From IMG/VR virus record IMGVR_UViG_3300032242_003236, positions 1-33,377 of that record: a stretch of 33,377 nucleotides of DNA, one strand, 5' to 3'. Position 1 is the stretch's first letter. The number at the start of each line of letters is the position of its first letter. This stretch comes from a virus. This document shows positions 16,136-19,918 of the stretch, piece by piece. Under the pieces are notes generated by a model that searched no databases, had not been told where the DNA came from, and worked only from the letters and a program-made list of their open reading frames with translations. A program made the translations under genes and the position numbers.

Positions 16136-16407
16136 CGCGCCACCGCGGCAGCGCGCCGATCGCGCCAATGCGGTGCGCCGACCCCGCCCGCGGTGCGCCA
16201 GCTTCCGTCGCCGGCCTCGATGACGCGCGAGGATTGCCCCCGCTCGATGCGAATTAGCTCGGCAGCCTCCGCTTGGCGCAACACATGCGCGACGCTGCCG
16301 GTGCTGGCCCAGCCGAAATGCTCGCGCAGCGCCTGGTTCGTCGGGGCGCGGTGCCCGGCTTGCGCCGCGCGGCGGATCACGTCGACAACCCGTGCCGGCG
16401 TGGTCAT
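16132..16407 (-). CDS. Winged-helix DNA-binding protein (LexA N-terminal-like)
   Basis: This 91-residue protein contains a winged helix: VVDVIRRAAQAGHRAPTNQAL (residues 6-26), HFGWASTGSVAHVLRQAEAAE (29-49) and a wing (IRIERGQSSRVIE). The pattern recalls the LexA N-terminal domain, but there is no peptidase domain. Both ends overlap neighbours by ATGA. It follows the GcrA-like gene, so it is likely a second early regulator. Its DNA target is unknown. Confidence 0.65.
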   Translation of the reverse strand: MTTPARVVDVIRRAAQAGHRAPTNQALREHFGWASTGSVAHVLRQAEAAELIRIERGQSSRVIEAGDGSWRTAGGVGAPHWRDRRAAAVAR

Positions 16408-16883
16408 GCGCCCATACTCCCGCCGGCGAAGACGAGCTTCGCGTGCTCCGCGCACCAGGAGCACCCGGCATCGCGCCGCGGCGCGTCGCAGTACCGATGC
16501 GTGGGTCGCTCGGTATTCGACCAGAGCGGCCAGCGGCAGGCGCGCGGCCGGCTATGCTGCGGCAGCAGCCGGTGCGGCGGTTCGGCGGCCGCGCGGAACG
16601 GGATCACGACGCCGGTCGGCTGCGGCGGCGGCAGCGAAACCGGCGCAGCGGCGGCCGGCCGGCGCCACACCCACGGCGCACCGCGGCGCGCTTCAGCCAC
16701 CGCGCGGAGCGAGGCCGGCACGGCCAGCGTCGGCAGCGTCTCGCCGTTGTCGAGCAGCCGTTTGCGGTATCCGACGACCACGTTTTTCGTCACGCCGCAC
16801 TCGCGGCCGATCTCGGAAAGGCTCTTGCCGCCCTGGCGCAGCAGCGCGATGACGCGGGCCTTGTGCGGCGGCGACCGGGTCAT
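16404..16883 (-). CDS. GcrA-like cell-cycle regulator
   Basis: This 159-residue protein pairs an N-terminal HTH (SLSEIGRECGVTKNVVVGYR, 21-40) with a C-terminal Cys/His module: C116 in CRWPL, C132, C141, C144 and H147 (CSWCAEH). This is the layout of GcrA-family proteins of Alphaproteobacteria. Host GcrA binds sigma-70 holoenzyme and GANTC-methylated DNA to activate cell-cycle promoters. The usual N-terminal WT-x-E-R opening is replaced by a shorter basic end, and a Pro/Ala-rich linker (70-100) separates the parts. It is the second gene after the Cro-like gene, overlapping it by ATGA, so it is produced early. An effect on phage or host promoters is inferred. Confidence 0.8.
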   Translation of the reverse strand: MTRSPPHKARVIALLRQGGKSLSEIGRECGVTKNVVVGYRKRLLDNGETLPTLAVPASLRAVAEARRGAPWVWRRPAAAAPVSLPPPQPTGVVIPFRAAAEPPHRLLPQHSRPRACRWPLWSNTERPTHRYCDAPRRDAGCSWCAEHAKLVFAGGSMGA

Positions 16884-17149
16884 GCGGGCCCGTCCGTCAC
16901 GGAAATGTGGGTTGGCGTTAAAGGCTCAGCAACCGCACTGTGCGCTTTATGCACAGCACCGAAAGCACTTGCCAGGTCCGGACGGATCTCAGCGGGGGTA
17001 AGCCCGGTGAGTCGAGCAACGTCGCTGATCTTGTCCGTGGGCACGCGCCCCTTTGCCCAACGGAGGACAGTTGTATGGGCGACACCGAGAGCCCTGCCAA
17101 GGCTGACGGCGGAGGCATTGCGACCACGGAGGTACTCTTGAAGGGTCAT
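16880..17149 (-). CDS. Cro-like, YdaS-type HTH protein
   Basis: This 89-residue protein starts at ATG 17149, first in the minus-strand early operon. The HTH region (AVSLGRALGVAHTTVLRWAKG, 14-34) and the block PTDKISDVARLTGLTPAEIRPDL (37-59) match YdaS/Cro-like phage proteins, with the characteristic IRPDL end. Its divergent orientation to the repressor gene across 93 bp and the operator-like dyads between them fit a Cro role. There is no clear ribosome binding site; a candidate promoter ends seven bases before the ATG, so its mRNA may be leaderless. An operator-type dyad lies inside its 3' end. A longer in-frame start at 17272 would cross the repressor's start. Confidence 0.75.
   Translation of the reverse strand: MTLQEYLRGRNASAVSLGRALGVAHTTVLRWAKGRVPTDKISDVARLTGLTPAEIRPDLASAFGAVHKAHSAVAEPLTPTHISVTDGPA
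16938..16956. promoter_or_regulatory. Operator-type dyad inside the Cro-like gene
   Basis: CTGTGC-GCTTTAT-GCACAG has perfect 6-base arms with a 7-base spacer. It has the same architecture as the sites around the repressor gene, but lies 219 bp from the nearest of them and not on their 34-bp spacing. Confidence 0.5.
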
Positions 17150-17155
17150 GGCGAG

Positions 17156-17184
17156 ATTGTGGAGTCGACGCACAAACAACGCAA
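17156..17184 (-). promoter_or_regulatory. Candidate early promoter of the Cro operon
   Basis: On the minus strand TTGCGT (17179-17184) and CACAAT (17156-17161) are 17 bases apart. The -10 matches TATAAT in 4 of 6 positions. The expected start falls at about the ATG at 17149. A GANTC site (GAGTC, 17162-17166) lies in the spacer next to the -10. Confidence 0.35.
17157..17175. promoter_or_regulatory. Operator site O1 between repressor and Cro-like genes
   Basis: TTGTGG-AGTCGAC-GCACAA has matching TTGTG/CACAA arms. Its centre is 17166, exactly 34 bp from the next ATGTGC-type site. It covers the candidate -10 of the Cro operon, so a bound repressor would block that promoter. Confidence 0.55.
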
Positions 17185-17190
17185 GGCGAA

Positions 17191-17209
17191 ATGTGCAAAA
17201 TCCGCCGGG
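17191..17209. promoter_or_regulatory. Operator half-site O2
   Basis: A perfect left arm ATGTGC (17191-17196) is seen, with only GC conserved in the right arm (GCCGGG). Its centre, 17200, is 34 bp from both O1 and O3, and this spacing is the main support. Confidence 0.4.
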
Positions 17210-17224
17210 GTCGGGCCGCAGGGC

Positions 17225-17243
17225 ATGTGCGAGCGTCGCGCTA
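17225..17243. promoter_or_regulatory. Operator half-site O3 at the repressor start
   Basis: The left arm ATGTGC (17225-17230) is perfect and the right arm GCGCTA partial. Its centre is 17234, 34 bp from O2. The site ends on the first base of the repressor start codon, so binding would repress the repressor's own expression. Confidence 0.4.
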
Positions 17244-17563
17244 TGCCCAAGAAGCACCCGATCCGCCCGCACCTTCGAGCGTGGCGCCTACACTTCGACA
17301 AGAGCCTGGAATGGGTTGCAGATCAGATAGGGATATCTCACTCTACCGTGCAGCGGTACGAAGTGGGGAAAGCCGGCGTGGACGACGCGACCTTTACAGC
17401 GATCGCAAAGGTTTATTGGATCACAGAGGCCGAGCTTTCCGCTCCGGTGTCTGAAGCCGAGCACGCGCGCGCATTGCATAAACTCCTATCGACCGTGAAA
17501 GGGCTCGACGTGGAGTCTTTGACTATCCTGGTCGGATTCGCCCAGCGCATGCGGCCGAAATAG
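17243..17563 (+). CDS. CI-like XRE-family repressor, short form
   Basis: This 106-residue protein has an XRE helix-turn-helix (residues 20-45: LEWVADQIGISHSTVQRYEVGK) and a C-terminal helical part (SEAEHARALHKLLSTVKGLDV) that may dimerise. There is no S24/LexA-type peptidase domain, so RecA-stimulated self-cleavage is not expected and prophage induction must work otherwise. It is divergent from the Cro-like gene and has operator-type dyads on both sides. Codon use and base composition are less GC-rich than its neighbours. Start 17243 is chosen because an upstream in-frame ATG (17225) falls inside an operator; neither has a strong ribosome binding site. Confidence 0.75.
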   Translation: MPKKHPIRPHLRAWRLHFDKSLEWVADQIGISHSTVQRYEVGKAGVDDATFTAIAKVYWITEAELSAPVSEAEHARALHKLLSTVKGLDVESLTILVGFAQRMRPK

Positions 17564-17569
17564 CAGCGC

Positions 17570-17588
17570 ATGTGCCCTCACTGCACAT
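17570..17588. promoter_or_regulatory. Operator-type dyad after the repressor gene
   Basis: ATGTGC-CCTCACT-GCACAT has perfect 6-base arms and is the best example of the site. It lies seven bases after the repressor stop. Its centre, 17579, is 34 bp from the next dyad. Confidence 0.6.
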
Positions 17589-17603
17589 TCAGGGTTGCAA
17601 TAA

Positions 17604-17622
17604 CTGTGCGGTGACTGCACCA
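17604..17622. promoter_or_regulatory. Operator-type dyad before the plus-strand operon
   Basis: CTGTGC-GGTGACT-GCACCA shares the spacing and inner arm bases of the other sites. It lies between a possible -35 (TTGCAA, 17595-17600) and a weak -10 (CACCAT, 17618-17623), and 26 bp before the first gene after the repressor. Confidence 0.5.
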
Positions 17623-17647
17623 TCCCTCCCGCTTTCCGGAGGGACCG

Positions 17648-18013
17648 ATGCCCGAAGATTCAACCGCCTTGGCCGCCGAGCGCTTTTGCGCCATCGACGG
17701 CGCCGCGTTGCCGAGCAACGTCCGGCCGTTGCGACCGGCCCTGGCCGCGGCGCCCCGGCCGGTCGCGCTGCCGAGCTATGAGGCACTCGCCGCCGCCAAT
17801 GCCGCCCTGCGGCGCGAAGCCCATGCGCTGCGCTGGGGCCTGCTGCTGACCCGGATCTTCGGGGTCGCGCCGCATTGCGTGGCGACGCCCTCGGTGGCGG
17901 CGCAGGCCCGCAAGCTGGCCACCTGGATCGATGCCGGCTGCCACGGCGCGCCGGAGCTGACGGGCTACGCCGAACAGCAGGTGCGCCACATCGCGCCGGA
18001 GCTGCGGCCATGA
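17648..18013 (+). CDS. Unknown protein (121 aa), first gene after the repressor
   Basis: A strong GGAGGGA five bases before ATG 17648 supports the start. The N-terminal 40 residues are low-complexity Ala/Pro. A helical stretch follows (SYEALAAANAALRREAHALRW), with coiled-coil character, and then a conserved-looking C-terminus (ATWIDAGCHGAPELTGYAEQQ). No domain was recognised. It opens an operon whose next genes overlap by ATGA/GTGA, and dyads lie just upstream, so the repressor probably controls it. Confidence 0.65.
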   Translation: MPEDSTALAAERFCAIDGAALPSNVRPLRPALAAAPRPVALPSYEALAAANAALRREAHALRWGLLLTRIFGVAPHCVATPSVAAQARKLATWIDAGCHGAPELTGYAEQQVRHIAPELRP

Positions 18014-18683: not shown

Positions 18684-19391
18684 ATGCAGATTGCGCTCAG
18701 CCGTCACGATCTATGGTCGGCGGTGGATGCTTTGAAGGATCGGGTCGAACAGGCCGGATTTAGCGGCGAAGCGCTTGCGGTCGCTCTCGGCGGCCTCACC
18801 ACGCTTGAGATGCTGCTGCGGCCGCCGACGGAACCTGCCGCCGACGGCGAGGACGCGAGCGCCGCACTGACCGAGCTCGCGGCGTGGACCGAAACACCGC
18901 GCGAATTGCCCGTCGCGGCCCGCAAGGCCGGGATCGCCGAGAAGGCACCGGTCATCGTGCCAGCGACGCCGAAGGCCGCCGCCGCGCCCGATAGCGGCCC
19001 GCTGCTGACGCTTGAGCGGCGCGAGCTGCTGCAAAAGATCTGGGGCGACCCCGCGCATACGCTGAAGACGGTCACCGCCGCGGTGAACGCCACGGAGGGC
19101 AAGCCGATCCGGGCGGATTCGATGCTCTACAAGCTGGCCGAGGCCGCCGGCTTGCCGCGCACCCGCACCGGCGCCGGCGTCGATCGGTTTCGCATGGTGA
19201 CGGCGTCCGCCACGCCGCCAGCAAACCCGCCGGCCGCACCCGACGACGAAGACATGCGCGAGGCCGAGGCCATGGCCAAGGCCGGCCGCAGCGGGCGCGA
19301 AATTGCCGAGTATTTCGGCTGGAAGCCCGAGCGCGGCGCCGACCTGGTCGCGCGCGTGCGCGAGCAGGCGGGCGCGGAGGCCGCGGCATGA
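18684..19391 (+). CDS. Protein with a C-terminal HTH-like region (235 aa)
   Basis: GAGGAA eight bases before ATG 18684 supports the start. The N-terminal region (MQIALSRHDLWSAVDALKDR) is helical and a Pro/Ala-rich linker follows (about 90-110). Residues 115-165 (TLERRELLQKIWGDPAHTLK to GLPRTRT) could be a DNA-binding winged helix. The C-terminus (AEAMAKAGRSGREIAEYFGW) also carries an HTH-like pattern. It may therefore be a regulator with two DNA-binding segments. No family was recognised. It overlaps the cupin gene by ATGA. Confidence 0.55.
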   Translation: MQIALSRHDLWSAVDALKDRVEQAGFSGEALAVALGGLTTLEMLLRPPTEPAADGEDASAALTELAAWTETPRELPVAARKAGIAEKAPVIVPATPKAAAAPDSGPLLTLERRELLQKIWGDPAHTLKTVTAAVNATEGKPIRADSMLYKLAEAAGLPRTRTGAGVDRFRMVTASATPPANPPAAPDDEDMREAEAMAKAGRSGREIAEYFGWKPERGADLVARVREQAGAEAAA

Positions 19392-19918
19392 CCGGGCCCG
19401 ACTTCATCCTGCCCGGCTGGCTTTGTCACCTGTTCCTGGCGCTGCTGCGGCCGCGCTTCGCGCGCCTGCCTGCCGAGGCAGCGCATGGCTTCACGATCGG
19501 CGGCGACGAAGACCCCTATCTGCGCCGGTGGTTCGTGACGCCGAAGGGCGATGGCCCGGCGGTCTACCTGCACCAGTTTCTGCGGGATGACGATGACCGC
19601 GCGCTGCATGACCACCCGTGGTCGAGCTGCGGCATCATCCTCGAGGGCGGGTACATCGAGCACACGCCGGCCGGCCAGGTGGTGCGCGCGGTCGGCGACG
19701 TGGTGCTGCGCAAGCCGGAGGACCGGCACCGCGTCGAGCTTTTCCGCGAGGCCAATGGCATGAAGCGCCCGGCCTGGACGCTGTTCCTGGTCGGGAAGAA
19801 GGAGCGGGACTGGGGCTTCTGGTGCCCGGGTGATGGCACTGCCGAGCGTTTCGTGCCCTGGCAGGACTTCACCGAGGGCGAGCATGGCGAGCGCGTCGGC
19901 AAGGGTTGCGGTGCGTGA
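19388..19918 (+). CDS. Cupin-fold protein
   Basis: This 176-residue protein contains cupin motif 1-like residues in RALHDHPWSS (His74, His76), GYIEHTP (86-93) and motif 2 GDVVLRKPEDRHRVEL (103-118, His114). These could bind a metal ion in a beta barrel. A hydrophobic N-terminal segment (WLCHLFLALLR) precedes the barrel. It ends with DWGFWCPGDG, a pattern seen in phage and bacterial small cupins. The substrate is unknown. It lies in the repressor-side operon, so it may be a lysogeny-expressed accessory gene. Confidence 0.7.
   Translation: MTGPDFILPGWLCHLFLALLRPRFARLPAEAAHGFTIGGDEDPYLRRWFVTPKGDGPAVYLHQFLRDDDDRALHDHPWSSCGIILEGGYIEHTPAGQVVRAVGDVVLRKPEDRHRVELFREANGMKRPAWTLFLVGKKERDWGFWCPGDGTAERFVPWQDFTEGEHGERVGKGCGA

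Follow-up and report, generated by a model that had tools for sequence, protein, structure and literature searches.

A probable lambda-type CI/Cro immunity region with candidate operators 34 bp apart in a viral genome, and its counterparts in Acetobacteraceae prophages

The OR region of phage lambda is the textbook genetic switch, and mutation has been the main approach to the question of how far its operator spacing reflects protein contacts or promoter geometry. Its cro and cI genes are divergent, a second lytic promoter lies behind cI, and the operators, 17-bp dyads, overlap both promoters between the divergent genes. The proximal operator overlaps the -10 of the lytic promoter by four bases with its centre at -17, the middle operator is centred at -42 from the leaderless repressor start, and the pitch is 24/23 bp, so spaced that OR2 overlaps the lytic -35. 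In CP-933P (PaaR2/YdaS), the repressor gene is also leaderless and both proteins bind the 97-bp intergenic region, and a PL-like promoter with further operators belongs to this E. coli cryptic prophage switch (PMC8630535). Like CP-933P, Rac (RacR/YdaS) has a YdaS-type Cro; its sites, by our measurement, have spacings of 26 and 25 bp, and the repressors of both prophages differ from the one described below. For phiAP1, a mitomycin-C-inducible Acetobacter phage, Xre-family ORFs have been named and operators are not described in the same paper (PMC8566455). We found no description of a 34-bp operator spacing in the open-access papers searched.

We analysed a 33,377-base virus record, referred to here as the window, whose coordinates are used throughout. 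Two divergent regulator genes lie in its middle. The minus-strand gene (16880-17149), predicted to be leaderless, which lambda cro is not, encodes an 89-aa Cro-like HTH protein that matches the PHROG 'transcriptional repressor' (5.7e-08) and has homologues in the related loci L043/L005, L044 and L066. Its Pfam matches to YdaS_toxin and HTH_26 are weak, and the resemblance to the YdaS-type Cro of CP-933P and Rac rests on a PF15943 match (E 1.5e-4, 22 bits) below the cut-off of 30. The plus-strand gene (17243-17563) encodes a short CI-type repressor of 106 aa with HTH_31 and HTH_3 matches above the Pfam cut-off. Only HTH matches were found, with no S24 peptidase or LexA-like C-terminal domain, which sets it apart from lambda CI with its C-terminal domain of the RecA-cleavable type. 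An AlphaFold2 model (mean pLDDT 88.5) shows a five-helix HTH domain followed by a tail of two helices, and related solved structures match it over the HTH domain only, or weakly. Behind the repressor gene, a short plus-strand operon begins at 17648 with a 121-aa ORF (17648-18013) that is preceded by GGAGGG and has no PHROG match; further along this operon, a cupin-like protein (19388-19918, plus strand) matches PHROG 4786 'cysteine dioxygenase' (3.8e-47). On the minus strand, cro is followed by genes for a GcrA-like regulator, a DnaB helicase and an AAA ATPase, and then by antiterminator, terminase, portal and head genes. The GcrA-like protein (16404-16883, minus strand; PF07750 above cut-off) comes directly after cro and overlaps its end.

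The first-pass annotation had placed five operator-like sites around the repressor gene and a further dyad within cro, and all of these coordinates proved correct. Counting the operator core as 17 bp (TGTGC-N7-GCACA), O1 (17158-17174, TGTGGAGTCGACGCACA) has one mismatch and is a candidate operator on the Cro promoter, where it shares four bases with the predicted -10, as had been proposed. O2 (17192-17208, TGTGCAAAATCCGCCGG) has the left half only and lies with its centre at -43 from the repressor start, and O3 (17226-17242, TGTGCGAGCGTCGCGCT) adds just GC to the left half, so that both are left half-sites, in agreement with their first description. In the 19-bp reading of the annotation, O3 indeed ends at the A of the repressor start codon (17243); it overlaps the -10 of the repressor promoter. 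Beyond the repressor gene, O4 (17571-17587, TGTGCCCTCACTGCACA) is an exact dyad and the distal candidate operator of the plus-strand promoter, and O5 (17605-17621, TGTGCGGTGACTGCACC), with one mismatch, is the proximal one and ends inside the -10. This pair flanks the PL-like -35 and does precede the plus-strand operon. The extra dyad (16939-16955, TGTGCGCTTTATGCACA) is an exact match inside cro, as reported, and has no conserved counterpart in L005/L043. The spacing noted for the first three and the last two sites was also recovered, the pitch being 34 bp for O1-O2, O2-O3 and O4-O5 alike.

With up to one mismatch, the motif occurs five times in the window against 1.26 expected, a count reached in none of 100 shuffles, and four of the five matches fall within 700 bp, at the regulators. 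At two mismatches, the count (21 seen, 20.5 expected) shows no enrichment and is uninformative. A scoring matrix trained on the relatives L043 and L066 only, then run over 33,361 positions of the window, ranked 17571, 17605, 17158 and 16939 first to fourth. The same matrix placed O3 at rank 190 (score -0.9) and O2 at rank 716 (score -5.2), and the case for these two sites therefore rests on their conserved position. Because O2 and O3 of the window are half-sites, a repeat search confined to its upstream region failed to make 34 stand out; a motif learned from the downstream pair did pick out O1.

The closest relative (L005/L043), also found in Paracraurococcus ruber (L053/L062), has a DnaB 82% identical to that of the window, a repressor 55% identical and a Cro 56% identical. 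In its intergenic region, TGTGC recurs at 34/34, the Cro ATG is nine bases away from O1, O3 stops just before the repressor ATG, all as in the window, and the pair behind the repressor is spaced at 35. The expectation that related phages would carry the motif at the same spacing was thus borne out. O2 lies exactly 34 bp from O1 in the window, L043, L044, L066, L046, L047, L072, L087 and others, and at 33 or 35 bp in some loci. O3 is clear in a few close relatives only: TGTGC at -17 from the repressor ATG is also found in L043 and L070, with GGTGC in L066.

Used alone as a query, the window repressor found no relatives in viral contigs or phage records, and relatives were gathered by alignment-based searches and a family alignment of 26 repressors. 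Loci were found in viral contigs, Gluconobacter, Paracraurococcus and the induced phage phiAP1 (LC644972), and in 20 of 397 genomes for the family drawn around Paracraurococcus. Some two dozen divergent repressor loci repeat the layout. Most belong to Acetobacteraceae prophages, and one is that of phiAP1, which has the TTTCGC word, a pair 34 bp apart and a third site at -25 instead of -17. We ran a motif-free spacing search over the 95 bases behind each repressor stop. For 23 of 31 loci, the best spacing was 33-35 bp and exceeded every shuffle (13 at 34, eight at 35 and two at 33), a result with P of about 7e-21 if the loci were independent, which is overstated since they are related. They form eight single-linkage clusters at 40% repressor identity, and such probabilities are therefore upper limits on the surprise. 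Non-member HTH loci showed no 33-35-bp spacing in the same search. Within the family, the recognition word varies by group (TGTGC, TGTCC, TGGGCG, GTTGCC, TTAGCG, TTTCGC, TTACGC, TATTCG and TTTCTTC). The more distant L003/L049 and L004, with variant motifs, were kept out of the main claims.

Class- and phylum-wide searches added few members and yielded mostly other HTH families (L089-L098) that lack the downstream pair. L089, an alphaproteobacterial S24-type repressor gene, has TTTGC sites O1 and O2 that by eye are 34 bp apart, and a TTGAC on the reverse strand lies between them, so that the pitch may be independent of the short repressor tail. A second group of short repressor genes (L101, L114, L124), weakly similar to the family of the window, likewise has 34-35-bp pairs. 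Several relatives (L085, L045, L046, L047, L073, L079) carry an additional site that fills the O1-O2 gap, so that tiles of 16-17 bp abut and the -35 falls inside the middle one.

The layout was also recovered by a scan blind to the proteins, in which 2.9 million viral contigs were searched for pairs of exact TGTGC-N7-GCACA dyads, with every pitch between 19 and 49 allowed. Of the 28 stretches matched, 12 had a pitch of 33-35, against about 2.7 expected if uniform (p 5e-6). A TTGAC -35 sat at a nearly fixed offset in the gap of 11 of these 12 pairs, compared with any -35-like word in two of the 16 others (Fisher p 5e-5).

We then aligned the promoters of 24 loci, anchored on their proximal operators. 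In nearly all relatives, TTGAC or TTGC lies at a fixed distance upstream of the proximal operator, and the outer arm of that operator makes up the first four bases of the -10 in both the Cro and the plus-strand promoters. The -35 of each lytic promoter sits free between its two operators, in the 17 bp that separate them, in contrast to lambda. In the window, the Cro promoter has TTGCGT (17179-17184, minus strand) in the O1-O2 gap and CACAAT (17156-17161) after a 17-bp spacer, with its predicted +1 at 17149, the A of the ATG, and in nearly all loci the Cro ATG stands 7-9 nt past O1, the position of the +1. The plus-strand promoter has TTGCAA (17595-17600) in the O4-O5 gap and, again after 17 bp, CACCAT (17618-17623), which overlaps O5 by four bases. 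The repressor promoter (PRM) has no recognisable -35, and its -10 (17231-17236, plus strand, GAGCGT) is poor apart from the fitting A at -11 and T at -7, the two bases it shares with lambda PRM. In 20 of 24 loci, these two bases are tied to O1 (O1+74/+78), with 15 loci at the exact offset, against a background of 6.4%, and where the ATG is shifted by one they follow the operator array and not the ATG. The repressor ATG itself lies at O1+83 to +86 in most loci, and both regulator genes appear leaderless. In L075, L077 and L079-L081, the repressor start that agrees with the family is an in-frame ATG at O1+85/86.

We consider it very probable that these sites are the operators of a lambda-type CI/Cro immunity region with an OR/OL layout, at a pitch about one helical turn longer. 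The placing of O1 on the Cro promoter and of O4/O5 before the plus-strand operon, together with the conserved spacing, speaks for the earlier reading as CI/Cro switch operators. We infer binding, repression, activation at O2 and cooperativity from the geometry of the sequence and its conservation. The short CI-like repressor and the divergent Cro-like protein would bind the same 17-bp dyads, with O1 on Pcro, O2 between the promoters, O3 on PRM and O4/O5 on the PL-like promoter behind the repressor gene. When O1/O2 and O4/O5 are filled, one dimer would cover the -10 and a second would lie just upstream of the -35, switching off both lytic promoters. At PRM, which has no -35, polymerase would be aided by a dimer bound at O2, centred at -43 from the leaderless start of the repressor gene, a geometry fitting a repressor-activated promoter, and O3 would serve to shut off PRM by Cro or by surplus repressor.

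The starts of cro and the repressor gene are 94 bp apart in the window, with O1 at -17 and O2 at -43; the corresponding measurements in lambda place OR1 at -17 from the PR +1 and OR2 at -42 from the cI +1, with starts 83 bp apart. Thus, 94-17-43 gives 34 where 83-17-42 gives 24, which indicates the same promoter-operator units with about one more turn between them. O4/O5 adjoins no PRM and yet keeps 33-35 bp, just as OL1-OL2 of lambda keeps 24, which suggests that the pitch is preferred by the repressor itself, presumably via contacts between dimers. A tenable explanation, which we favour less, needs no dimer contact: two independent sites, the first on the -10 and the second immediately upstream of the -35, would block one promoter while sparing its -35. 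This would suit a repressor without the C-terminal cooperativity domain of lambda, the variation of the pitch between 33 and 35, and the presence of a -35 in the gap of nearly every pair, including the protein-blind ones. However, the distal site would then be free to wander, and it is held within 33-35 bp in those 23 of 31 loci, the one clear exception being the downstream (PL-like) pair of L085, whose 24 bp differs by 10 bp, or nearly one helical turn.

A second alternative concerns only the window phage, in which O2 may have decayed and O3 may be just the extended -10 of PRM, leaving an array of O1 and O4/O5. The low matrix scores of both sites are in keeping with it, and the TGTGC of O3 supplies a TG at -15/-14, as suits an extended -10. 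We nevertheless think it rather unlikely that the two sites are non-functional, since L043 has TGTGC exactly +34 and +68 from O1 and carries O2 as a full site, and half-sites occur at +34 in many loci.

We also looked at which protein reads the sites. Operator similarity tracks the recognition helix of the repressor (Mantel r 0.58), also once the remainder of the protein is accounted for (partial r 0.40, p 0.001). By helix, the correlation is 0.61 for CI and weaker, 0.46, for Cro, a difference that would fit a model in which only one regulator reads the sites and the other acts elsewhere. This is quite improbable, as the recognition helices of the two proteins are more similar inside one locus (0.44) than across loci (0.31, p 1e-4) and nearly identical in L063, and PaaR2 and YdaS of CP-933P both footprint their shared intergenic region (PMC8630535). 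The covariation of the two helices with the operators and with each other indicates that the CI-like repressor and Cro most likely read the same operators. That a common 5-mer merely happens to recur at this spacing, as the lack of enrichment at two mismatches might hint, has next to no probability, being contradicted by the same distances kept in relatives and found again by the protein-blind scan.

In most loci, an inverted repeat follows the -10 of the PL-like promoter (17624-17643 in the window; also in L043, L046, L047, L063, L074, L075, L077, L080, L081 and L087). Its 3' arm holds the Shine-Dalgarno sequence, GGAGGG in the window, and its 5' arm is largely upstream of the predicted transcription start. 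The mean accessibility of the Shine-Dalgarno sequence is 0.22 in the read-through RNA vs 0.43 in the promoter RNA, a difference to be read with the fact that trimming alone raises it, and the comparison with shuffles gives p 0.06. The leader hairpin might mask the ribosome site solely in transcripts that read through from the repressor gene. The ribosome site of T4 gene e is likewise hidden only in read-through transcripts.

As predicted from its sequence, this switch is a new, conserved variant of the lambda type, with a likeness to the leaderless YdaS-type switches of the E. coli cryptic prophages (PMC8630535); it stands outside the lambda type by its pitch and by the lack of a C-terminal domain in its repressor. 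More tentatively, it may represent a widespread class of temperate-phage switch that combines a repressor without a cooperativity domain, operators one turn wider than those of lambda, two back-to-back leaderless promoters at about 94 bp, a recognition word that changes on a fixed skeleton so that immunity specificity evolves freely, and possibly a leader hairpin that hides a ribosome site in read-through RNA only. Here, a natural family keeps the promoter-relative positions, adds about one turn, dispenses with the C-terminal domain and has swapped its recognition sequences many times, which makes the question of contacts versus promoter geometry testable. Its matched repressor-Cro-operator triples would be a resource for reading the recognition code, and the layout offers a simple route to the immunity regions and predicted immunity groups of Acetobacteraceae phages, including those of vinegar bacteria.
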